Source of the DNA: Dyella sp. C11
GTDB taxonomy: Bacteria; Pseudomonadota; Gammaproteobacteria; Xanthomonadales; Rhodanobacteraceae
Reading direction: 5' to 3'
DNA length: 64,000 nt
NCBI RefSeq assembly: GCF_003121485.1
Contig: NZ_QAVX01000015.1
Coordinates: 1-64,000, forward strand
In this document: positions 45,169-58,429 of the stretch, piece after piece
Layout of the letters: every line of letters begins with the position of its first letter
Position numbering within the stretch: position 1 is the first letter of the stretch
The notes under the pieces: model-generated
Database searches by the model: none
What the model was told of the DNA's origin: nothing
Seen by the model: the letters and a program-made list of their open reading frames with translations, nothing else
Translations under genes and position numbers: made by a program

Positions 45169-46731
45169 TTACCGCAGCAACAAGCGATACGCCGGATTCT
45201 CGCTCTCATCCCGGAACGGATAACCCAGCGTATCCAGGAAGGCCTGGAACAACGCCCGCTCATCCGCCGGCACCTGGATACCGACAAGAATCCGCCCGTA
45301 ATCCGCACCCTGGTTGCGGTAGTGGAACAGGCTGATGTTCCAGTCCGGATGCATGTGGCCCAGGAAGCGCGTCAGCGCACCGGGCCGCTCCGGAAACTCG
45401 AAGCGGTAGAGCAGCTCGTCGCAAGCCAGTGGTGAGCTGCCGCCGATCATGTGGCGCAGGTGCAACTTGGCCAGTTCGTCGTCGGTGAGGTCGAGCACGC
45501 CAAAGCCATGGGCGCGGAAGGCGTCGATCAACGTCTGGCGTTCGTCCCGGTGCGTGGTCTGCACGCCCACGAAGATGTGCGCTTCGCTGGCGCTGCCGAT
45601 GCGGTAGTTGAATTCAGTGATGCTGCGCTGATCGAGCGCCGCGCAAAAACGCCGGAAGCTGCCGCGCTCCTCGGGAATGGTGACCGCGAACACCGCCTCG
45701 CGCTGCTCACCCACTTCGGCACGCTCGGCCACAAACCGCAGCCGGTCGAAATTGAGATTGGCGCCGGACACCACCGCCACCATCGGCTGCGCCGACGCAT
45801 CATGCGTTGCGATGTACTGCTTGAGACCCGCCAGCGCGAGCGCGCCTGCCGGCTCGGGCACGCTGCGCGTCTCGTGGAATACATCGCGAATGGCTGCACA
45901 GATGGCGTCGGTATCCACGCGCACCATGCCATCGGCGTAGCGCTGGCACAGATCGAAGGTCAGGTCGCCCACGCGTTTCACCGCGGTGCCGTCGGCAAAC
46001 AGGCCCACTTCGGACAGTGTCACCGGCGCGCCGGCATCCAGCGATTGCGCCATGGCATCGGAATCGCAGGTCTGCACGCCGATGACCTTGATCTCGGGGC
46101 GCAGCGCTTTCACGTAGGCGGCGATGCCTGCCAGCAGGCCGCCGCCACCCACCGGTACGAAGATGGCATGCAGCGGTCCGGGATGCTGGCGCAGGATCTC
46201 CATGCCCACCGTCGCCTGGCCGGCGATAACAGCCGCATCGTCGAAGGGGTGCACAAAGGTGTAGCCGTGTTCGGCCTGCAGCCGGGCCGCTGTTGCCTGG
46301 GCGTCGCTGTACGAATCGCCGGCCAGCACCACTTCCACGTGCGTACCGCCAAAGCGGCGCACGGCATCTACTTTCACCTGCGGCGCCGTTACGGGCATCA
46401 CGATTACCGCACGAACGCCAAGCCGGGCTGCCGCAAGGGCAACACCCTGCGCGTGGTTGCCTGCGGAAGCGGCAATGACGCCGCGCGCGCGTTCGGCTTC
46501 GCCAAGCTGTGCCATGCGGTTGTAAGCGCCGCGGAGCTTGAACGAGAACACCGGCTGCTGGTCTTCCCGCTTGAGCAACACGGGTTGCCCGAGTCGCGCG
46601 GAAAGCAACGGTGCTGCTTCGAGCGAGGTCTCGCGTGCGACGTCATAGACACGCGCACCCACGGTCATGCGCAGCAGGTCATGTCCGCTTGGCGATGCGT
46701 CCGACACGCTGCGGGCAGCAAGAGCGTTCAT
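45169..46731 (-). CDS. ilvA: Biosynthetic threonine ammonia-lyase
   Basis: A 520-residue PLP enzyme converting threonine to 2-oxobutanoate, first step of isoleucine synthesis. The catalytic domain has the PLP Lys in FSFKLRGAYN (about residue 64), SAGNHAQGVALAA and GGGGLLAGIA; the C-terminal third contains two ACT-like regulatory units (about 335-510) for isoleucine feedback. Last gene of the leu-ilv cluster; ATG 46731 overlaps the ilvM stop. Confidence 0.96.
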   Translation of the reverse strand: MNALAARSVSDASPSGHDLLRMTVGARVYDVARETSLEAAPLLSARLGQPVLLKREDQQPVFSFKLRGAYNRMAQLGEAERARGVIAASAGNHAQGVALAAARLGVRAVIVMPVTAPQVKVDAVRRFGGTHVEVVLAGDSYSDAQATAARLQAEHGYTFVHPFDDAAVIAGQATVGMEILRQHPGPLHAIFVPVGGGGLLAGIAAYVKALRPEIKVIGVQTCDSDAMAQSLDAGAPVTLSEVGLFADGTAVKRVGDLTFDLCQRYADGMVRVDTDAICAAIRDVFHETRSVPEPAGALALAGLKQYIATHDASAQPMVAVVSGANLNFDRLRFVAERAEVGEQREAVFAVTIPEERGSFRRFCAALDQRSITEFNYRIGSASEAHIFVGVQTTHRDERQTLIDAFRAHGFGVLDLTDDELAKLHLRHMIGGSSPLACDELLYRFEFPERPGALTRFLGHMHPDWNISLFHYRNQGADYGRILVGIQVPADERALFQAFLDTLGYPFRDESENPAYRLLLR

Positions 46732-46970
46732 GGCAGGGCGGCGGGATGGGTCACGTCGATCACGTCCACCAGCTTGCGGGTCTGCTTGATGATCTGCTCC
46801 ACCGTATCATCCGCACCTTCCATCACCAGCGTGAGCTGCGAGACGGCGGGATCTTCCGTGGCGGCCACGGTGAGCGAGTCGATGTTGCAGTGACGTGCGG
46901 CGAACATGCCGGCGACGCGCATCAAGGCGCCGGATTCGTTTTGCAGAAGAATGGAAAGCGTGTGTTTCAT
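46728..46970 (-). CDS. ilvM: Acetolactate synthase small subunit, IlvM-type
   Basis: An 80-residue ACT-domain protein (MKHTLSILLQNESGALMRVAGMFAARH opening) with the short length of IlvM rather than the two-domain IlvH/IlvN. It stabilises and regulates the IlvG catalytic subunit. ATG 46970 has GGAG close upstream; an in-frame GTG at 46976 is too near the ribosome site. Coupled to ilvA by ATGA. Confidence 0.9.
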   Translation of the reverse strand: MKHTLSILLQNESGALMRVAGMFAARHCNIDSLTVAATEDPAVSQLTLVMEGADDTVEQIIKQTRKLVDVIDVTHPAALP

Positions 46971-46995
46971 GGCCACTCCGTAGTCCCTACCTATC

Positions 46996-47078
46996 CGTCA
47001 TTCCGGCGCAGGCCGGAATCCAGTCGCGACCACCTGACACCATCGGCACTGGATCCCGGCCTTCGCCGGGATGACGAG
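46996..47078. repeat. Inverted pair of CGTCATTCC-type palindromes between ilvG and ilvM
   Basis: Copies at 46996-47024 and 47048-47078. Their stems (ATTCCGGC/GCCGGAAT and ATCCCGGC/GCCGGGAT) are each self-complementary. Confidence 0.8.
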
Positions 47079-47107
47079 CTTTGAACTCTCCACGGGGATG
47101 GCGAGCG

Positions 47108-48988
47108 TCAGAACATGTCGCTCGTCGCATCTCCCGACGTTTCCTGCGCCACGCGCGAGGGAATGAAATCCCCCGTGATCATCTGCGCATACGTCGAACC
47201 CGGCCCCACCATGGGATACACGCCGGCATCCGGATCGATCATCACTTCGAGGAACGCCGGACCATCGAAGGCAAGAAAATCGGCGATGGTGTCCGCGAGC
47301 TTGGCCTTGTCTTCCAGCCGCTGGGCCCACTCGAAGCCATCGGCCTGCGCGGCCTTGATGAAATCCTTCTTGTGCAGGCTCTTGTCCGACGAGGCAAACC
47401 GCCCGCGGAAGAACAGCTTCTGCCATTGGCGCACCATGCCGTCGCCAATGTTGTTGAGCACCACCACCTTCACGGGCAAGTGATAGGTGGTGACGGTTTC
47501 CAGCTCGCCGAGATTCATGCGGATACTGGCATCGCCATCGATGTCGATGACCACCGCATCGCGCCGCGCGAACTGCGCGCCAATGGCCGCCGGCAAGCCG
47601 AAACCCATGGTTCCCATGGAGCCGGAGGTGAGCCAATGGCGCGGTTCGCGGAAATCGAAATATTGCGCAGCCCACATCTGGTGCTGGCCGACGCCGGTGC
47701 TGATCACCGCGCGACCTTGCGTGTGCTGGTTGATGGCTTCGATCACCGCCTGCGGCTGGATCAGCGTACTGTCGCGATCGTAATTCAGGCCGTGGTCGCG
47801 CTTGAGCGCGGCGATATGGGCATGCCAGTTCGCGTAACGGCCTTCCGCTGAGAAATTCAGTCCGTGACGCAGGCCGTACTGGTGCAGCCGCGACAAGGTG
47901 GCGTCGAGATCGCCGTGATGATGCCAGTGCACGGACTTCACCTTGCCGATCTCGGCAGGGTCGATGTCGATCTGCGCGATGAAGCGTGCGTGCGGCGCGA
48001 ACTTGTCGGGCACGCTGGCCACGCGATCATCGAAGCGCGCGCCCAGTGCCAGCAGGAAGTCGCAATCTTCCACGGCATAGTTGGCGTGCGCCGTACCGTG
48101 CATGCCCAGCATGTGCAGCGCGAGCGGCTCGGTGGTGTCCATCGCGCCGATACCCATCAGCGTGGTGGTCACCGGCAGCCCGAATTGCTTGACGAAAGCG
48201 CGCAGCGTGGCAGAGGCCTCGCCCGCGATGATGCCGCCGCCCGCATAGATCAGCGGACGCCTGGCCTTGGCCAGCGCGTCGAAGAAAGCTGCGCATTGCG
48301 CGTCGTCCACGCGAGCGTTCTGGATGGCGTGCTGGCGCGCGCGATAACCGGGGATCGGCAGCGTGCCTTCGCCGGCAAACGTGAGTGCGCTGTTCTGCAC
48401 GTCCTTGGGGATGTCGACCACGACAGGGCCGGGTCGTCCGCTGCGGGCGATTTCGAACGCGGTGCGCAACGTCTCTTCCAGCCGCGACGGATCAGTGAGC
48501 AGGAACACGTGCTTGGCGCACGGGCTCATGATGTTGCTGACCGGCGCTTCCTGAAACGCGTCGCTGCCCAGCGCCGCGGTGGGCACCTGGCCGCAGATGA
48601 CCACCATGGGCACGGAATCGGACATCGCGTCGCGCACCGGCGTCACCATGTTGGTGGCGCCCGGACCGGAGGTAACGATGGCCACGCCCACTTTGCCGGA
48701 CGCACGCGCGTAACCGGCGGCCATGAAGCCCGCACCCTGCTCGTTGGCGGGCACGATCAGCGGCATCGGCTCGCCGCCCAAGGGCGACAGATGTGTCGCG
48801 TTGAAACGGAAAACCGCGTCATACACGGGCAGGATCGCGCCGCCCGAATAACCGAACAGCACATCGACGCCTTCATCGGCCAATACCTGCACCACCACTT
48901 CTGCGCCGCTCATGGACTGGCCGGCGAGAGGGTGTGTCGTCAGTGGCGTGGGCACGTCACGATCTTCGATGGCGCGGTGCAGAGGCAT
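47108..48988 (-). CDS. ilvG: Acetolactate synthase large subunit
   Basis: A thiamine-diphosphate enzyme (626 residues from ATG 48988, 601 from ATG 48913) making acetolactate or acetohydroxybutyrate. TPP Glu in NEQGAGFMAAGYARA, FAD-region TSGPGATNMV and GRPGPVVVDIPKDVQ, and the C-terminal TPP motif DIDGDASIRMNLGEL...VVLNN are present. Neither start has a good ribosome site; the first 25 residues are not family-like, so 48913 may be the true start. The 5' gap 48989-49160 holds no other gene. Confidence 0.95.
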   Translation of the reverse strand: MPLHRAIEDRDVPTPLTTHPLAGQSMSGAEVVVQVLADEGVDVLFGYSGGAILPVYDAVFRFNATHLSPLGGEPMPLIVPANEQGAGFMAAGYARASGKVGVAIVTSGPGATNMVTPVRDAMSDSVPMVVICGQVPTAALGSDAFQEAPVSNIMSPCAKHVFLLTDPSRLEETLRTAFEIARSGRPGPVVVDIPKDVQNSALTFAGEGTLPIPGYRARQHAIQNARVDDAQCAAFFDALAKARRPLIYAGGGIIAGEASATLRAFVKQFGLPVTTTLMGIGAMDTTEPLALHMLGMHGTAHANYAVEDCDFLLALGARFDDRVASVPDKFAPHARFIAQIDIDPAEIGKVKSVHWHHHGDLDATLSRLHQYGLRHGLNFSAEGRYANWHAHIAALKRDHGLNYDRDSTLIQPQAVIEAINQHTQGRAVISTGVGQHQMWAAQYFDFREPRHWLTSGSMGTMGFGLPAAIGAQFARRDAVVIDIDGDASIRMNLGELETVTTYHLPVKVVVLNNIGDGMVRQWQKLFFRGRFASSDKSLHKKDFIKAAQADGFEWAQRLEDKAKLADTIADFLAFDGPAFLEVMIDPDAGVYPMVGPGSTYAQMITGDFIPSRVAQETSGDATSDMF

Positions 48989-49160
48989 ATTCACGGTGAT
49001 CGGCTTTCCCGGTGCATCGCCGAAACGTCGGCGAGCGGCATGTCGGTTGGAAAATCCCCTCCCCTGAAAACCAGGGGAGGGCCAGGGAGGGGTAATGCGT
49101 GCGGGATGAGCACCCCTCGAGTCGAGCAAAAACGTTTGATGCTTGCGAAACCTTTCCTGC

Positions 49161-49254
49161 TCGTCATCCCTGCGAAAGCAGGGATCCAGTGCCTTTTGTG
49201 ATCCAGCCTGCACGTTGAAAGACACTGGATTCCTGCTTTCGCAGGAATGACGAG
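49161..49254. repeat. Inverted pair of CGTCATCCC-type palindromes between ilvC and ilvG
   Basis: Copies at 49161-49191 and 49223-49254 with stems ATCCCTGC/GCAGGGAT and ATTCCTGC/GCAGGAAT. The spacer contains GTTGAAAGACACTGGATTCC, also found in the repeat at 59245-59338. Confidence 0.85.
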
Positions 49255-49263
49255 CCAAAATAC

Positions 49264-50277
49264 TTAACCCACTTTCTTCAACGGCTCGGCAGCAGCCTTC
49301 GGCGCATTCGCCTGCAGCCACGGCATGCGCTCGCGCAGCTTCGCGCCGACCTGTTCCACCGGATGCTCCAGGTCCGCCTGCTTGAACTTCTTGTAGTTCG
49401 GCAGGCCGGCTTCGTATTCGGCAATCCAGTTCTTGGCGAAGGTGCCGTCCTGGATGTCCTTGAGCACGCCCTTCATGCGCTCCTTGGTGGCCGCATCGAT
49501 GATGCGCGGGCCGCTGACGTAGTCGCCGTACTGCGCGGTCTCGGAGATGAACTCCAGCATGCGGGTGATGCCGCCTTCGTAGAACAGGTCCACGATCAGC
49601 TTCAGTTCGTGCAGCACTTCGTAGTACGCGATTTCCGGCTGGTAACCGGCTTCCACCAGCGTTTCGAAGCCGGCCTGTACCAGCGAGCTGGCGCCACCGC
49701 ACAGCACGGCCTGTTCGCCGAACAGATCGGTCTCGGTCTCTTCCTTGAAGTCGGTCTTGATCAGCAGCGCGCGACCGCCGCCGATACCGTCGGCATACGC
49801 CTTGGCCTTGGCTTCGGCGTTGCCGCTGACGTCCTGGTGCACGGCCCAGATGCTGGGCACGCCACGACCGATTTCATACTCGCGACGCACCAGCGCGCCC
49901 GGACCCTTGGGCGCCACCAGCACCACGTCGATGTCCGTGCGCGGCTCGATCCGCTTGAAGTGCACGTTGAAGCCGTGCGCGAACAGCAGCGCAGCACCGG
50001 GCTTGATGTTCGGCTCGATGCTTTCCTTGTACAGCTTGGCCTGCACCATGTCGGGCGTGAGCACGGCGACCAGGTCGGCGTCCTTCACCGCATCGCCCGG
50101 TTCGGCGACGTTGAAGCCTTCGGCGCGGGCTTTCTCCCACGAGGGGCCACCCTTGCGCAGGCCGACGACGACGTCGAGACCGGAGTCGCGCAGGTTGAGT
50201 GCGTGGGCGCGGCCCTGGCTGCCAAAGCCCAGGACGGCGATGCGGGCGTTGGCCAGCGTGTCGTTGTTGTTGCTCAT
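49264..50277 (-). CDS. ilvC: Ketol-acid reductoisomerase
   Basis: A 337-residue class I (short) KARI converting acetolactate to dihydroxyisovalerate with NADPH and Mg. The nucleotide site is [19 protein letters not shown] (about 13-31), with Arg/Ser-type NADPH contacts in LRKGGPSW, and metal-binding Asp/Glu in [12 protein letters not shown] (about 191-202) and the [13 protein letters not shown] helix (about 225-237). It overlaps ilvD by ATGA. Confidence 0.97.
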
Positions 50278-51995
50278 GCGGTGACTCCTGCGTTCGTGTC
50301 TTCGTTGACGTGTGTGGAAGCGTGGGATGCGGATGTACTGCGTGCTGCAATGGGTTGCGTGGTGGCACCTTCGGAAGCGGAGCCCACCAGGGAGACGTAC
50401 TTGGCCAGCGCGCCGCGCGTGACCTTGGGTGCTGGCGGCTGCCAGGCGGCGCGACGCGGGGCGAGGTCGGCGGTGGTGCTGATCTCGCGCGTGTCGGCAT
50501 CGATGCGGATGCGGTCGCCTTCGTGCAACAGGCCGATGGGGCCGCCACGTGCGGCTTCGGGTGCGATATGGCCCACCATGTAGCCGTGCGTGGCGCCGGA
50601 GAAACGGCCGTCGGTAATCAACGCGACGTCGTCGCCCAGGCCGCGGCCGATCAGTGCGGCGGTGACGCCCAGCATTTCGCGCATGCCCGGGCCACCGGCC
50701 GGACCTTCGTTGCGGATGACGATGACGTCACCCTTCTCGATGGTCCCACCCTGCACGGCGGCGAAGGCCTGCTCCTCGCTTTCGAACACGCGCGCACGGC
50801 CTTCGAAATGGCTGGCGCCCTTGCCGGCGAGCTTGAGGATGCAGCCTTCCGGCGCGAGGTTGCCGTAGAGGATGGAGTAGCCACCACGCGGCTTCAGCGG
50901 CTGCGAGATCGGATGCACGACATCCTGGTGTTCCGCACGGGGTGCGGCGGCAGCTTCATCGAACAGGCTGCGGCCGGTGACGGTCGGCGTGTCGGTGAGC
51001 ATGTCGGCGGCGATCAATTCCTGCGCCACGCGCGCGCTGCCACCGGCGCCGAACATTTCCACGGCGGTGTAACGGCCACCGGGCAGAAGATCGGCAATCA
51101 CGGGCGTGTGCCTGGAAGCCGGTTCGAAATCCTCCAGCGTCCAGCGCGTGCCCGCTTCGCGCGCGATGGCGAGCAGATGCAACACCGCGTTGGTAGAACC
51201 CGCCGTGGCGGCGACCATGCGCGCGGCGTTGCGGAATGCGGTTTCGCTCAGCAGCTCGCGCGGCGTGCGGTTCTCCCTGAAGCACTCCATCACCAGCTCG
51301 CCACAGCGACGTGCGGCGGCGGCCTTGGCCGGATGCGTGGCGGGAATGTCGTTGAAACCCATCGGCGACAAGCCGAGCGTGGTCAGCACCATCGCCATGG
51401 TGTTGGCGGTGAACTGGCCGCCGCAGGCACCTGCGCCCGGGCAGGCATCGCGTTCCACGGAGGTGAGTTCGTCATCGCCGATCTTGCCCGCGCCATGCGC
51501 GCCGACGGCTTCGAACACCTGCTGGATGGTGATGGGGTGGTTGTCGTGCGTGCCGTGCGCAATCGTGCCGCCGTACAGCGCCACGCTCGGGATATTGAGT
51601 CGCGCCATCGCCATCGCGGCGGCGGGAATGGTCTTGTCGCAGCCGCACAGCACCACCATCGCATCCAGGCAGTGACCGTCCACGGCCAGCTCGATGGAGT
51701 CGGTGATCACTTCGCGACTGATCAGCGACGCGCGCATGCCGGGCGTGCCCATGGCAATGCCGTCGGTCACTGCGATGGTGTTGAATTCCACCGGCGTGCC
51801 GCCGGCGGCGCGAATGCCTTCGGCCACGTGCTCGGCGAGCTCACGCAGGTTGAGGTTGCACGGGCTCACGTTCGACCACGTGTGCACCACGGCCACGAGC
51901 GGCTTGGCGATGGCTTCGTCGTCCATGCCGGTGGCGCGCAGCATGGCGCGTGCCGGTGCGCGGTCGGGGCCGGTCTTGATCAGGTCACTGCGCAT
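50274..51995 (-). CDS. ilvD: Dihydroxy-acid dehydratase
   Basis: A 573-residue iron-sulfur dehydratase giving the 2-oxoacid precursors of valine and isoleucine. Cluster cysteines lie in [12 protein letters not shown] (about 110-122) and [12 protein letters not shown] (about 182-193); the [20 protein letters not shown] motif near residue 480 is typical. First gene of the ilvD-ilvC pair. Confidence 0.97.
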
Positions 51996-52049
51996 GCGTG
52001 GGTTCCGGTGAAGAAGTGAACATGAAACTTGCGGACGCTTTCAAAGACA

Positions 52050-52160
52050 CCGTCATCCCCGCGTAGGCGGGGATCCAGCGTCTTTCGGACCGCGCAAAGG
52101 CACTGGATGACCAGCCATACGGCTGTTGGAAAAGCGCCTCCCGCCTACGCGGGAATGACG
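52050..52160. repeat. CGTCATCCCCGCG-type palindrome pair between leuB and ilvD
   Basis: A forward copy at 52050-52080 (stem ATCCCCGC/GCGGGGAT) and a reverse copy ending at 52160 (CCCGCC..GCGGG..ATGACG), the latter with a diverged left half. Confidence 0.75.
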
Positions 52161-52190
52161 TTGCAGGAGAGGCTGAGGGTGTGGCTGGAC

Positions 52191-53288
52191 TCAACCGCAT
52201 GCGCGCCCCCAGCGAAGAAAAGCCGCCGCGTTGCAGGCGTGTTCGTCGACGGCGGCAAGCACCGCTTCCAGCACGTCCTTGGTACCTGCGCTGCCACCGA
52301 TGTCGCGTGTGTGCGGGCCGCGCTCCAGCACTTCGGCCACGGCTGCTTCCACGGTGCTGGCTTCTTCTTCCAGGCCCAGCGAATGACGCAACAGCATGGC
52401 GGCGGAAAGAATGGCGCCGATGGGATTGGCCACGCCCTGGCCAGCGATATCCGGCGCGGAACCGTGGATGGGTTCGTACAGGCCACCCTTGCCTTCACCC
52501 AGCGACGCTGACGGCAGCAGGCCCAGCGAACCGGCGAGCGCGGCGGCTTCGTCGGTGAGGATGTCGCCGAACAGGTTTTCGGTGACCACCACGTCGTACT
52601 TGCCCGGCTGCGTCAGCAGCAGCATGGCCATGGAATCGACCAGCTGGTGCTCCAGCTTCACGTCCGGATATTCGGCCGCGATGCGCTGCACCGTGGTGCG
52701 CCACAGGCGCGACGTTTCCAGCACGTTGGCCTTGTCGACCGACGTGACGTGCTTGCGGCGCTCGCGTGCGAGTTCGAAGGCACGACGCGTGACGCGTTCC
52801 ACTTCGGCAACGGTGTACTTGCACTCGTCGATGGCGGTGTCGATGGTGCGCGTCTTCGCGCCGAAGTAGGCGCCTCCGGTGAGTTCGCGCACGAACAGCA
52901 CGTCGACGTTCTTCAGCTTCTCGTTCTTCAGCGGCGACAGCGAGGCCAGCGCCGGATGCACTTGCAGCGGACGCAGGTTGGCGTAGACGCCGAGTGCCGC
53001 GCGCAGTGCCAGCAGGCCCTGTTCGGGGCGCACCGGCGCGTTCGGATCGGACCACTTCGGACCGCCTACTGCGCCAAGCAGTACCGCATCGGCGGCCTTG
53101 CACGCTTCCAGCGAGGCTTTTGGCAACGGTTCGCCAGTGGCATCGATGGCGCAACCGCCGATCTGATGTTCTTCGAAGTGGAAGTGATGATCGTAATGCG
53201 CAGCGACCGCATCGAGCACGGCCACGGCCGCAGCAGTGACTTCCGGGCCGACGCCGTCGCCGGGCAGGGTGACGATATGCGCTCTCAT
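52191..53288 (-). CDS. leuB: 3-isopropylmalate dehydrogenase
   Basis: A 365-residue NAD-dependent decarboxylating dehydrogenase of leucine synthesis. [15 protein letters not shown] opening, substrate Arg residues in [21 protein letters not shown] and REL..GAYFG, and metal Asp in [23 protein letters not shown] match LeuB. ATG 53288 overlaps the leuD stop. Confidence 0.97.
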
Positions 53289-53950
53289 AGGGTGACTCCG
53301 GCGGTGCGAGGCTCTTGTTGAGGAGTGCGGCCATGGATGGCCGCTTCTTGACCTTCGCGTTCATGGATGAACGCATCAATCAATGGCATGTGTTGCTGGA
53401 GATAACCCAGCTGGTCGACGCCGTTGAGCAGGCAGTGACGGGCAAACGGTTCGAGCTGGAAGCGGATGTGGCCGCCGTCAGGCAGGGCGATCACCTGTTC
53501 CTTCACGTCGATGGACAGCTCAATGCCCGGGTGTTCGATCAGCCAGCGGTGCTCGGCTTCATCCAGCACGATGGCGAGCAGGCCGTTCTTCAGCGCGTTG
53601 TTGCGGAAGATGTCCGCGATCTCGCTGCACAGCACCGCCTGGATGCCGTAATCAAGCAGGGCCCACGGCGCGTGCTCGCGCGAGGAACCGCAACCGAAAT
53701 TGCGACCGGCGACCAGGATGTGGCATCCACGCGCCTGCGGCTGGTTGAGCGGGAACGCCGGGGTGTCGCTGCCGTCGGCCTGGTAGCGCCAGTCGTTGAA
53801 GCACAGCTTGCCCAGGCCAGCGCGCTCGGTAGTGGTAAGGAAGCGCGCCGGGATGATGCGGTCGGTGTCGATGTTCTCGTCCGGCAGCACGGCAGTGCGG
53901 GAGTGGAGGCGGGTGATGGGGCGCAGTAACGAACCTCCGAAGGACAACAC
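53285..53950 (-). CDS. leuD: 3-isopropylmalate dehydratase small subunit, with palindrome-encoded tail
   Basis: LeuD partners LeuC to isomerise isopropylmalate. [35 protein letters not shown] and [14 protein letters not shown] are family hallmarks. The frame given is 221 residues from GTG 53950; a CTG at 53926 preceded by TCGGAGG 7 nt upstream is an attractive non-standard start giving 213 residues. The C-terminal end [20 protein letters not shown] is encoded by a palindromic repeat also present in ilvE. Confidence 0.93.
53319..53358. repeat. GCGGCCATGGATGGCCGC palindromic element in leuD 3' end
   Basis: A near-perfect hairpin, GCGGCCAT-GG-ATGGCCGC, within a unit of about 40 nt that is nearly identical to 55560-55599 (28 consecutive identical bases, then scattered differences). 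It is translated as part of the LeuD tail. Confidence 0.85.
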
Positions 53951-53966
53951 GATGCGAAGCGCTTAA

Positions 53967-54018
53967 CTCCCTCTCCCCTCCGGGGAGAGGGTTGGGGTCA
54001 GGGGCGGGTGCTTGCGGG
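53967..54018. repeat. CCCTCTCCCC-type REP between leuC and leuD
   Basis: One REP copy with the hairpin CCCTCTCCCC/GGGGAGAGGG and the conserved GGTTGGGGT and GGGGCGGGTGCTTGC tail, in the 166-nt leuC-leuD gap. Confidence 0.85.
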
Positions 54019-54116
54019 CACGCCTATCGAAGCGTCGCTTGAAGAAGCAGTGAGGCCAGCGTGGGCCCGCTCCGGAGGCCCCGACCCGGCGCGGACCGGC
54101 AGTACACCCTAGGGCT

Positions 54117-55529
54117 TCATGCCGGCCCCAGCTCCCTGGTCTCACGCCGGGCGGCGATGCGACCCGCCACGGCAGAGGCTGCCGCCGTCGCCGGACTCGC
54201 CAGCACCGTGCGCGCCCCCTTGCCTTGGCGTCCTTCGAAATTGCGATTCGAGGTGCTCACCACCAGCTGCCCCGGCTGCGCGAAATCGCCATTCATCGCG
54301 ATGCACATCGAGCAACCCGGCTCGCGCCACTCGGCACCGGCAGCCTTGAACACGTGATGCAGGCCTTCGCTCTCCGCGTCGCGACGCACCGCTTCGGAGC
54401 CTGGCACCACCAGCATGCGCACGCCATCGGCGACGCGACGACCGCGCAGCACATGCGCCGCCTCGCGCAGATCCGACAGTCGCGAATTAGTGCAGCTGCC
54501 GACGAACACCACGTCCACCGGCGTGCCCTGCATGGGCTTGCCCGCTTCGGCCTTCATGTAGTCGAGCGCGCGCTTTTCCTGCGGATTGCGTGCGGCCGGT
54601 ACCGGCTTGTCCATGGCGATTGCCATGCCCGGATGCGTGCCGTAGGTGACGGTGGGGCGGATCTTGCCAGCGTCGATGCGTACTTCGCGGTCGTACTCGG
54701 CGCCGTCGTCCGTGCGCAAGGATTTCCAGCGTGAAACGGCTTCATCCCATGCCTCGCCCTGCGGTGCGCGCGGACGACCCTTCAACCACGCGAAGGTGGT
54801 TTCGTCCGGCGCGATCAAGCCAGCGCGTGCGCCGGCTTCGATCGACATGTTGCACACCGTCATGCGCTCTTCCATCGACAGCTGTTCGATGGCCTTGCCG
54901 CGATATTCGATGACGTAGCCAGTGCCGCCGTCCACGCCGATCTCGCCGATGATGTGCAGGATCAGATCCTTGGCGCCCACGCCAGCAGGCAGGTCGCCAT
55001 CGACATGGATCGCCAGCGTCTTGGCCTTGCGCTGGAGCAGGCACTGCGTGGCCATCACATGGCCCACTTCCGTGGTGCCGATGCCGAACGCCAGTGCGCC
55101 GAACGCGCCGTGTGTGGAGGTATGGCTGTCGCCGCACACGATCGTCATGCCAGGCTGCGTCGCGCCCAGTTCGGGGCCGAACACATGGACGATGCCGCGG
55201 TCGCTGCTGTTCCAGCCATGCAGTTCCACGCCAAACTCTCTGCAGTTGGTTTCCAGCTGCGAGACCTGCGCTTTCGCCTCGGCGTTGGCGTAGGGACGCT
55301 CGCCATCGGTGCCCGGCGGCAGCGTGGGGGTGGAGTGGTCCAGCGTGGCCAGCATGCGATCCGGGCGACGCAGCTTCAGGCCGCGTTCGCGCAGCTCGCT
55401 GAAGGCCTGCGGCGAGGTGACTTCGTGCACCAGGTGCAGATCGATATAGAGAATCGCCGGCGTGTCGATGGATTCCGCAGCAACGACGTGGGCATCCCAC
55501 ACTTTCTCGAACAGGGTCTTGGCGGTCAT
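54117..55529 (-). CDS. leuC: 3-isopropylmalate dehydratase large subunit
   Basis: A 470-residue aconitase-family subunit. 4Fe-4S cysteines in [16 protein letters not shown] (about 345-360) and GCSMCIAMN (about 405-413); substrate/iron-region [20 protein letters not shown] at about 130-150. Normal length (E. coli 466). ATG 55529 overlaps the ilvE stop by ATGA. Confidence 0.97.
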
Positions 55530-56530
55530 GCCGTGGCTCCCAACGAAGCAGGCTGCTGGTGAGGAGTGCGGCCATGGATGGCCGCTTTTTGATCTTCGTG
55601 GTCAGGGATGACCACATCGGATACGGGCGTGAGCCAGCCCCACTGGTCAGTGGTGGTGCCATCAAACAAGCCGAAGACCGCCTTCTGCAGCGCGCGGGTG
55701 ACATCGCCCGGACGACCCGCGCCCACCTGCTTGCGATCCACCGCGCGCACCGGCGTGATTTCCGCCGCGGTGCCGGTCATGAAGATTTCGTCGGCGGTGT
55801 ACAGCGCTTCGCGCGGCAGGTCGCGTTCTTCCACCGCCATACCGAGCTCGCCAGCGAGCGTGATGACGGATTCGCGCGTGATGCCAGCCAGGATGCCCGC
55901 GCTCGTCGGCGGCGTGAGCAGCTTGCCGTTCTTCACCAGGAACAGGGTTTCGCCGGCGCCTTCGCTCAGCAGGCCGTTGTGGCCCAGCGCGATGCCTTCG
56001 GCGTAGCCGCCGCGACGCGCTTCAAGCGCGATCAGCTGGCTGCTGAGGTAGTTGCCGCCGGCCTTGGCCCAGCTGGGAATGGTGTTGGGTGCGGGGCGAT
56101 GCCACGAGGACACGCACACGTCGGCGCCGTGCTCGATCGCATCGCCGAGATAAGCGCCCCATTCCAGCGCCATGATGGCCACGTCCACCGGCGAATCCGT
56201 TTTCGGCAGCACGCCCAGGCCACCCGCGCCGCGGAACACGATGGGACGCACGTAGGCGGACTTCATGCGGTTGGCGCGGATCACTTCGTGACAGGCGGCG
56301 TTGATCTCGTCTTCGGTGTAGCCGACGTCGATCTCGTAGACGCGCGCGGATTCGAACAGGCGGCGCGTGTGGTCGGCGAGGCGGAAATAGGCGGGGCCCT
56401 GCGGCGTGGCGTAGACGCGTTCGCCTTCGAAGACCGAGGAACCGTAGTGCAGCGCGTGGGTGCTGACGTGGACCGTGGCCTCGGTCCAGGGTTTGATCTG
56501 GCCGTTGTGCCAGAGGAATGGCGTGGTCAT
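55526..56530 (-). CDS. ilvE: Branched-chain amino acid aminotransferase
   Basis: A 334-residue fold type IV PLP aminotransferase catalysing the last step for Leu, Ile and Val. PLP Lys in [19 protein letters not shown], Glu in [16 protein letters not shown] and [11 protein letters not shown] are present. The last 25 residues are appended by a repeat element (see 55560-55599). AAGGAG precedes ATG 56530. Confidence 0.95.
55560..55599. repeat. GCGGCCATGGATGGCCGC palindromic element in ilvE 3' end
   Basis: The second copy of the unit seen at 53319-53358. It lies in the same frame relative to the coding strand, giving [14 protein letters not shown] in IlvE versus [14 protein letters not shown] in LeuD. 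Confidence 0.85.
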
Positions 56531-56546
56531 TACATAACTCCTTGGA

Positions 56547-58139
56547 TCACAGGCTCGCGACCGCAGCCCGTTGTTGCACGGGTTGTTGTCGTTCGATGCG
56601 GTTGACGATGGCGAGCGCGGCATGCGCGGTCGCTTCGATGATGTCGGTGGAGATGCCCTGGCCACGCCAGTCGCGCTCGGCATGGCGCGCGGTGAGGTTG
56701 GCCTGGCCTTGCGCGTCGCCGCCCTCGCTCACGGCGCGCACCTGGAACTGCGTGACATCCAGCGTGGTGCCGGTGGCGCGTTCGATGGCGCGCAGCACGG
56801 CGTCCACCGGGCCATCGCCAATGGCGGCTTCGCCCACTTCGTGGCCGTTGTCGTGCGTCAATTTCACCGATGCGGACGCGCTGCCGCCCAGGTGCGAATT
56901 GGTGTTGAGCTGCACGATGCGCCAGGGGCCGGTCGCTTCCGGGTCCATGCCCAGCGCGATGGCTTCCAGGTCTTCGTCATGCACTTCACGCTTCTTGTCG
57001 GCCAGCACCTTGAAGCGGGTGAAGATGCTGTCCATCGCGGCGTCGTCCACCTCGTGGCCCAGGCCCTGCAGGCGCTGGCGCAACGCGTGGCGGCCGGAAT
57101 GCTTGCCCAGCACCAGGCGCGTTTCGCCCATGCCGACATCCTGCGGACGCATGATTTCGTAGGTGCCGCGATGCTTGAGCATGCCGTGCTGGTGAATGCC
57201 GGACTCGTGCGCGAACGCGTTCTCGCCGACCACGGCCTTGTTGCGCGCCACGGATTGCCCCGTGAGCTGCGTCAGCAGGCGCGAAGCGGGATAGAGCTTG
57301 CGTGCATCGATGCCGGTGTCGACGCCGAAGTAAGCACCGCGCACTCGCAGCGCCATGACGATTTCTTCCATCGACGCATTGCCGGCGCGTTCGCCGATAC
57401 CGTTGATGGTGCATTCCACCTGACGCGCGCCAGCGGCCACACCGGCGAGGCTGTTGGCCACCGCCATGCCCAGGTCGTCATGGCAGTGCGTGGAGAAGAT
57501 CACCTTGTCGGCGCCGCGCACATGCTGGCGCAGGTAGGTGATGCGTTCGGCCATTTCCACCGGTGTGGTGTAGCCCACGGTGTCCGGCACGTTCAGCGTG
57601 GTGGCGCCCGCGGCAACGGCGGCGCTGAATACTTCGACCAGGAACTCCGGTTCGGTACGCATGGCGTCTTCGGCGGAGAACTCCACCTCGTGCGCCAGCT
57701 TTCTCGCCCGTTCGATGGCGGCGCAGGCCGTATCGATCACCTGCTGTTTGCTCATGTTGAGCTTGTGCTCGCGATGCAGAGGGCTGGTGGAGAGGAACAG
57801 GTGCAGGCGCGAATGACGCGCCGGCTCCAGCGCGCGGCCGCAGGCGTCGATGTCGCCATCGTTGCAGCGGGCGAGGCCGCACACCGTCGGGCCGCGCAAC
57901 ACGCGGGCGATTTCGTTGACCGAGGCGAAATCATCCGGCGAAGCGCTGGGGAATCCCGCCTCGATGATGTCCACGCCGAGCGCTTCCAGCGCATGCGCCA
58001 TGCGGAGTTTCGCGCGGCGATCCATCGAAAAGCCGGGCGCCTGCTCGCCGTCGCGCAGGGTGGTGTCGAAAATGCGCACGCGTTCGGCGGCTACGTCGCC
58101 CACGTCGCTGCTCTCGTTGCTGGATTGATCGGGGGTCAT
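56547..58139 (-). CDS. leuA: 2-isopropylmalate synthase
   Basis: A 530-residue enzyme for the first committed step of leucine synthesis. HMGL-type TIM barrel (about 18-290, FDTTLRDGEQAPGFSMD and the metal motif THCHDDLGMAVANSLAG) and C-terminal LeuA regulatory domain (about 400-515). ATG 58139 is chosen because GGAG lies 6 nt upstream; Met at 58151 is also possible. First structural gene of the cluster, preceded by a leader peptide and attenuator. Confidence 0.96.
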   Translation of the reverse strand: MTPDQSSNESSDVGDVAAERVRIFDTTLRDGEQAPGFSMDRRAKLRMAHALEALGVDIIEAGFPSASPDDFASVNEIARVLRGPTVCGLARCNDGDIDACGRALEPARHSRLHLFLSTSPLHREHKLNMSKQQVIDTACAAIERARKLAHEVEFSAEDAMRTEPEFLVEVFSAAVAAGATTLNVPDTVGYTTPVEMAERITYLRQHVRGADKVIFSTHCHDDLGMAVANSLAGVAAGARQVECTINGIGERAGNASMEEIVMALRVRGAYFGVDTGIDARKLYPASRLLTQLTGQSVARNKAVVGENAFAHESGIHQHGMLKHRGTYEIMRPQDVGMGETRLVLGKHSGRHALRQRLQGLGHEVDDAAMDSIFTRFKVLADKKREVHDEDLEAIALGMDPEATGPWRIVQLNTNSHLGGSASASVKLTHDNGHEVGEAAIGDGPVDAVLRAIERATGTTLDVTQFQVRAVSEGGDAQGQANLTARHAERDWRGQGISTDIIEATAHAALAIVNRIERQQPVQQRAAVASL

Positions 58140-58172: not shown

Positions 58173-58209
58173 CAAAAAACCCCGCATCCGTTTCCGGGTG
58201 CGGGGTTTT
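58173..58209 (-). terminator. Attenuator terminator of the leu-ilv leader
   Basis: On the minus strand an 11-bp perfect stem AAAACCCCGCA/TGCGGGGTTTT, extended through one mismatch by CCG/CGG, with a GAAA loop and T6, ends 34 nt before leuA. Its left arm contains CCCGCACC (58204-58197), complementary to GGTGCGGG at the end of the leader gene. Confidence 0.9.
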
Positions 58210-58254
58210 GAGTTGGGTATCTAGGTTGGTTTTGCTTTACCTGGACACACGCCC

Positions 58255-58392
58255 TCAGCCCGCACCTCCGTTGGTAATAAGGAGTACGAGTACAAGGGCA
58301 AGAAGGAGGTTGTTGCGAAGGCGCAGCACGCCGACGTTGGTCGGGGGACCAATGGGTTCGGCGATGCGATCGTGGCTGTTGCGCTGCGACAT
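58255..58392 (-). CDS. Leu/Val/Ile-rich leader peptide of the leuA operon
   Basis: A 45-codon frame from ATG 58392 to TGA 58255. The product begins MSQRNSHDRIAEPIGPPTNV and contains a run LLLALVLVLLIT (residues 29-40) with six to seven Leu, two Val and one Ile codons in a row, then NGGAG and stop. It is followed by a short gap and the attenuator, the classic arrangement of amino-acid operon leaders. The predicted -10 lies only 8 nt upstream of the ATG, so the mRNA may be leaderless. Too short for ordinary gene callers. Confidence 0.85.
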   Translation of the reverse strand: MSQRNSHDRIAEPIGPPTNVGVLRLRNNLLLALVLVLLITNGGAG

Positions 58393-58400
58393 GCAGACGA

Positions 58401-58429
58401 ACCTAACGGCCCGTCCGACAGGTTGTCAA
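58401..58429 (-). promoter_or_regulatory. Promoter of the leu-ilv leader transcript
   Basis: On the minus strand, consensus -35 TTGACA (58429-58424), exactly 17 bp, then -10 TTAGGT (58406-58401). Start of transcription is expected within or next to the leader ATG. Confidence 0.65.

Follow-up and report, generated by a model that had tools for sequence, protein, structure and literature searches.

Introduction

The leuL and ilvL leaders of enterobacteria carry a 5′ UTR and are led by a Shine-Dalgarno (SD) sequence, and ilvL is multivalent. Proteobacterial attenuators are reportedly the subject of a comparative study by Vitreschak from 2004. The element described here, upstream of leuA in Dyella sp. 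C11, is like leuL and ilvL in having a leader peptide with control codons, alternative 1:2, 2:3 and 3:4 pairings and an intrinsic terminator, placed before leu and ilv genes. It is unlike them in that one leader serves a merged leu and ilv cluster, is 45 codons long, and is predicted to be leaderless.

Leaderless leader peptides are already known in Actinobacteria and Sinorhizobium. At the ilvBNC attenuator of Corynebacterium glutamicum a single nucleotide separates the transcription start from the start codon of the leader (PMC11857589); this attenuator shares Leu, Val and Ile codons and a terminator/antiterminator arrangement with the Dyella element (ilvL, ilvB-II motif; PMC11857589 and PMC10272879), whereas its leader has 15–17 residues and it belongs to another phylum and another gene context. 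Streptomyces lividans has leaderless leader peptides (leuL, ilvL and trpL) before leuS, leuA, ilvBHC and trpE, although these are 12–18 residues long and its LeuL1 leader is described as being without a typical Rho-independent terminator (PMC8079986). In Sinorhizobium meliloti the trpL attenuator RNA has the leader ATG at its very 5′ end; unlike the present case, it concerns tryptophan, has 14 residues and belongs to an alphaproteobacterium. The TrpL peptide has roles in trans (PMC7298713). Caulobacter ilvBN has an Ile/Val attenuator (PMC4117421). In a broad terminator survey the one mention of Xanthomonas concerns rpsL, and the text has neither ilv nor leuA (PMC2965389). Titles and visible abstracts yielded no description of the element in the Xanthomonadales, which is weak evidence of absence, as the subscription literature lay mostly outside the search and an earlier notice in Xanthomonas relatives is possible. 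What is added here is a predicted leaderless start, an order-wide spread with permuted operons, covariation, and an apparent grading of Leu and Val over Ile sensing.

The leader and the gene cluster behind it

The window is the whole stretch of DNA that was analysed, 64,000 nucleotides of Dyella sp. C11 (contig NZ_QAVX01000015.1, positions 1 to 64,000). The features discussed below are:

58424..58429 (−): −35 element TTGACA, starting 37 nt ahead of the leader AUG
58400..58405 (−): predicted −10 element TAGGTT, placed from spacing; 18-nt spacer, 7 nt ahead of the AUG
58255..58392 (−): leader peptide frame, ATG at 58392 to TGA at 58255, 45 codons, no SD seen; read directly from the sequence
58273..58308 (−): control codons CTC CTT CTT GCC CTT GTA CTC GTA CTC CTT ATT ACC, encoding L L L A L V L V L L I T
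58251..58299 (−): possible pause or protector hairpin (1:2), in which the control codons pair with GGAGGTGCGGG; from folding
58259..58266 (−): region 2, antiterminator arm GGTGCGGG, within the last leader codons
58197..58204 (−): region 3, CCCGCACC, which forms the antiterminator with region 2 or the terminator with region 4
58174..58205 (−): hairpin of the intrinsic terminator with its U6 run, from sequence and folding
56547..58139 (−): leuA, first gene of the cluster, from a family model; start taken as ATG 58139
45169..56530 (−): ilvE, leuC, leuD, leuB, ilvD, ilvC, ilvB, AHAS small subunit and ilvA, from family models
46728..46976 (−): the AHAS small-subunit ACT protein among these, from a family model

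The leader frame, given as MSQRNSHDRIAEPIGPPTNVGVLRLRNNLLLALVLVLLITNGGAG from 58392 to 58255, closes with LLLALVLVLLITNGGAG; both were read directly from the minus strand. An alternative, longer leuA frame would begin at 58187, which falls within the terminator. The ten genes behind the leader, leuA through ilvA in the order listed, are probably carried on one transcript. The best named relative of LeuA among the matches listed is that of Dyella japonica, with 92% identity. The original prediction of a 45-codon leader, exactly complementary arms, a terminator and ten leu/ilv genes was confirmed to the base.

Two kinds of repeat occur within the cluster. A 69-nt direct repeat (GCGGCCATGGATGGCCGC...), with copies 86% alike at 53309-53377 and 55550-55618, lies in the 3′ portion of each of two reading frames, leuD and ilvE, and the ends of LeuD and IlvE may be repeat-derived tails. 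REP-like palindromic repeats (CGTCATCCC...GGGATCCAG...GGAATGACG) are present in three gaps between genes: 46996-47079 (ilvB/small subunit), 49162-49255 (ilvC/ilvB) and 52051-52160 (leuB/ilvD).

Alternative structures and ribosome position

Three alternative pairings are found: 1:2 (58299-58251), 2:3 and 3:4. The arm GGTGCGGG (58266-58259) is exactly complementary to the terminator left arm CCCGCACC (58204-58197); the terminator stem spans 58205-58180 and is followed by U6 at 58179-58174. Folding also places an extra hairpin, GTGTCCAGGT...ACCTAGATAC, between arms 2 and 3. None of 200 dinucleotide shuffles folds as well as the 220-nt stretch (z −4.86). A simple terminator scan did not list the minus-strand leader hairpin, which folding did show. 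Within the leader, GGAGGT at 58269-58264 is SD-like and overlaps arm 2; it could slow the ribosome just ahead of the leader stop codon.

Each ribosome position was folded with 14 nt ahead of the A site assumed to be covered and the RNA made only through region 3. With the A site at codon 30, 34, 36 or 38, all of GGTGCGGG pairs with region 3, at about −29 kcal/mol. At Ile39 the antiterminator arm is partly covered (−22.3 kcal/mol), and at Thr40 more of it is covered (−19.0). With the ribosome at the stop codon GGTGCGGG is covered and does not pair with region 3 (−2.0). The folds thus suggest that stalls at Leu and Val codons free the arm fully and an Ile stall in part, so that Leu and Val would be sensed best and Ile less. 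Multivalent control by all three amino acids had been proposed for the run; this is supported for Leu and Val and less well for Ile, since a ribosome halted at Ile39 hides some of the antiterminator arm. Even with arm 2 free, the terminator is present in every minimum free energy fold computed for the full stretch; since all of these folds favour it, the decision of the switch would have to be kinetic, as in classical attenuation.

Distribution across the order

Two sets of loci were compared with the window. The first comprises 52 regions upstream of leuA, of which 22 were chosen for a visible leader from 80 relatives with named contigs and 30 are the best DNA matches, so that they are not a census. 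All have the frame with its codon run and the terminator, and they reduce to 48 distinct leader stretches. Those of the 80 outside the 22 taken were judged by a score alone, apart from four named Lysobacter loci (L020, L025, L038 and L064), which have no such leader directly before leuA.

The second set was found with a covariance model spanning the last 18 leader codons to the U run. At E ≤ 0.01 this model has a match in 214 of the 299 order-level genomes. All 80 order-level matches that were opened have a branched-chain-rich leader ahead of branched-chain genes, although the codon run in these loci is not independent evidence, given the 18 codons in the model. The presence of frame and codon run in relatives, on which the original prediction depended, thus holds in both sets. 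Nine of 60 loci were without a leader by script; all nine have one when read, with TTGACA (5/6 or better) 35–38 nt before the ATG, and they stand outside the leaders counted below. One genome unmatched by the model (G051) nonetheless has such a leader before leuA (L251), and the model therefore misses some leaders.

Within the family of the window 73 of 76 genomes match the model, a count taken from a listing by kinship, with 65 unlisted misses assigned to other families on the strength of that order. The three misses (G135, G208 and G020) have no close LeuA, showing just 26–28% identical stretches, and the joint absence of a close LeuA and of the leader suggests a loss of leucine synthesis. 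In the genome of the window itself the model gives 11 matches at E ≤ 1, including the element, the reverse strand of its terminator and eight weak matches; one other, L163, proved on reading to be a terminator alone.

The leader is kept while the gene order behind it changes, with leuA, ilvC, ilvD, ilvB or ilvE coming first. In the 71 loci that a script could parse, the gene next to the leader is ilvC in 28, ilvD in 22, leuA in 18, ilvB in two and ilvE in one. Arrangements include leuA-ilvE-leuC-leuD-leuB-ilvD-ilvC-ilvB-ilvA, ilvC-ilvB-ilvA-leuA-leuC-leuD-leuB, and ilvD-ilvC-ilvB-ilvE-ilvA-leuA-leuC-leuD-leuB. Two genomes, G260 (L231/L232) and G073 (L233/L234), have split leu and ilv operons and two diverged leaders, one for each.

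Among class-level genomes, seven of 274 match at E ≤ 1e-5, and three of these (G000, G037 and G048) belong to this order. Matches outside it were rejected: L262 has no leader, neither L265 nor L266 has one ahead of leu/ilv genes, and in L264 a 28-residue frame rich in Ile and Val comes with an SD-like AGGAG and no leu/ilv gene in the stretch fetched. Sister leaders were sought in the same genome before hisG, trpE and an aspartokinase gene, and no His-, Trp-, Thr-, Ile- or Phe-rich frame was found in the 450 nt before the matched stretch, except before hisG, where the frames are nested ones of a longer gene. Five planctomycete records (L049, L060, L062, L063 and L067) have short Leu-rich frames and T runs before leuA, and are perhaps unrelated leucine leaders.

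For the comparisons that follow, 122 entries were reduced to 116 distinct leaders, 48 upstream of leuA and 68 from the order-level set. L212 duplicates L017 and L223 duplicates L019, each pair being counted once; the starts of L105 and L110 were set to an inner ATG, and L156, a truncated copy of L024, is not among the 122.

Promoter and predicted leaderless start

A −35 element located 35–38 nt before an AUG places the transcription start at or beside the A of that AUG. From this spacing, transcription at the element is predicted to start on the A that opens the leader AUG or at most about 2 nt away, and by sequence criteria the leader mRNA appears to be leaderless, with neither a 5′ UTR nor an SD. 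The −10 hexamer at the leader is poor, and a consensus promoter scan gave no promoter match there.

The spacing is shared by nearly all of the leaders: TTGACA (5/6 or better) starts 35–38 nt before the AUG in 114 of the 116 (47/48 upstream of leuA and 67/68 at order level), at 6/6 in 108 and 5/6 in six, and it is absent at 5/6 in L024 and L157. A C immediately precedes the AUG in 105 of the 116. Within the 15 nt upstream, a single leader of the 116 has an SD-like tetramer; a slightly wider set of tetramers is found in the 30 nt before 13/116 leaders and, for the main gene, before its first aligned codon in 35/71. The promoter score counted when an ATG was chosen for the 68 order-level leaders. 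Where there is only one possible in-frame ATG, the choice is free of promoter information, and 80 of 81 such leaders show the TTGACA spacing, compared with 1.5% of shuffled upstream stretches. A stricter test over all in-frame ATGs is passed by 111/116; L159, L189 and L218 have the promoter and fail since upstream in-frame ATGs shift the stretch searched. Promoter and AUG lie outside the covariance model, so this evidence is not circular for the loci found with it.

A classical attenuator of the leuL/ilvL type would operate the same switch with an SD-led leader, a 5′ UTR and a transcription start well upstream. The enterobacterial leaders are the model for such an arrangement, and a second promoter may still lie further upstream, but the near-constant promoter spacing and the rarity of SD-like tetramers speak against it, and we regard it as unlikely. 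The description of the element as known from leuL and ilvL is accordingly right as to mechanism and incomplete as to the leader, which by sequence is without a 5′ UTR or SD and has no Rfam match at gathering score.

The 5′ codons of the leader have features of their own. The first seven (58392-58372) encode M[STP]QRNSH, which is conserved in the relatives of the window though distant from the switch, and codons 2–7 are U-poor (10% T in the 116 leaders). That these codons keep the AUG less paired was not supported by comparison of the 116 leaders with codon shuffles: the accessibility of the first 12 nt is 0.56, against 0.55 in the shuffles, and is higher in 54/116 leaders.

Covariation of the arms and choice of control codons

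The antiterminator and terminator arms covary, a feature that the original reading had proposed to look for in relatives. Over the 116 leaders the mean energy of the own 2:3 duplex is −17.5 kcal/mol, compared with −10.2 when arm 2 is shuffled, and own pairing outdoes the average over swapped partners in 102 leaders but fails to do so in 14; the own arm 2 is better than all 50 shuffles in just 53/116. The pair beside the GCGGG:CCCGC core is U-A in 78 leaders, A-U in nine, C-G in six and G-U or U-G in three, with a non-pair in nine of the 105 that have the core; the core as defined is absent in 11/116. These figures are counts of sequences, not of independent events. Five leaders (L159, L191, L193, L196 and L228) form a group in which both arms carry an insertion that adds a pair, so that GGTAGCGGG faces CCCGCTACC.

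Codon choice in the control run differs from that in the genes controlled. CTT, GTA and ATT are minor codons in the ten genes of the operon, with 4.9%, 4.5% and 12.7% of their codon sets. Over the final 20 leader codons these shares are 52%, 92% and 98.5% among the 48 leaders upstream of leuA, and 44%, 58% and 90% among all 116. The pairing demands of the 1:2 hairpin may be a partial source of this bias. There is a weak indication that control codons track operon content: in the stretch fetched, four leu-only operons (L231, L233, L236 and L237; n=4 only) have Leu-dominated runs adjoining the switch—LLLIGLLLRP, GLLLIPP twice and LLLLLLRI—with Val also present just upstream of the run in L233 and L237.

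The terminator could instead be constitutive and stand behind a functional small protein, with the Leu/Val/Ile run forming a membrane helix rather than a sensor. The hydrophobicity of the run and the conserved N-terminus seen in relatives would suit such a protein. A helix, however, leaves the preference for operon-minor codons, the position of the run against arm 2, its recurrence ahead of branched-chain genes in the 80 opened loci and the covariation of arms 2 and 3 pointing the other way, and we consider this reading very improbable. Control of the terminator by a metabolite- or ppGpp-binding riboswitch, or by a protein-binding leader, is still harder to credit, for although ppGpp riboswitches control branched-chain genes in other bacteria (PMC8632094), no Rfam family matches the leader at its gathering score (Leu_leader, RF00512, reaches 16.6 bits against a gathering score of 50 and aligns to 58174-58234 only), and conservation lies in the open frame and the switch arms.

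Proposed mechanism and significance

We propose that the element is a leaderless, ribosome-mediated attenuator of the leuA...ilvA cluster, sensing charged tRNA-Leu and tRNA-Val most and tRNA-Ile less, and we put the probability of this at roughly 0.87. The frame, codon run, promoter spacing, arm complementarity, covariation, conservation and gene content all argue for it, and the attenuator reading made from the window itself is well supported by the comparison of sequences. RNA polymerase would start at, or a couple of nucleotides from, the A of the leader AUG, and the leader would be translated as a leaderless message. When amino acids are ample, the ribosome should reach the stop codon and cover GGTGCGGG; the terminator would then fold and end transcription as a short RNA of about 220 nt. 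With Leu or Val tRNA uncharged, a halt of the ribosome at codons 29–38 would leave GGTGCGGG free to pair with CCCGCACC before the right arm of the terminator is made, and transcription of the ten genes would continue.

A more speculative extension, which we think unlikely, is that the terminated RNA of about 220 nt also serves, across the order, as a small leaderless mRNA, and that either its conserved peptide (M[ST]QRNSH ... LVLVLLIT ... GGAG) or the RNA acts in trans, making one transcript sensor, switch and signal; the coupling of the first ribosome to RNA polymerase would be set by leaderless initiation as the AUG emerges, and not by a 5′ UTR with a pause site.

The attenuator proposed here would be a clear, testable case of gammaproteobacterial attenuation that seemingly does without a 5′ UTR or SD, in contrast to the SD-led leader of the textbook model for these bacteria. 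More than 100 natural variants, in which one leader stands before operons of differing gene order, make it possible to test what governs control codons, arm spacing and codon choice. The finding suggests how one switch can cover the synthesis of leucine, valine and isoleucine in these bacteria.
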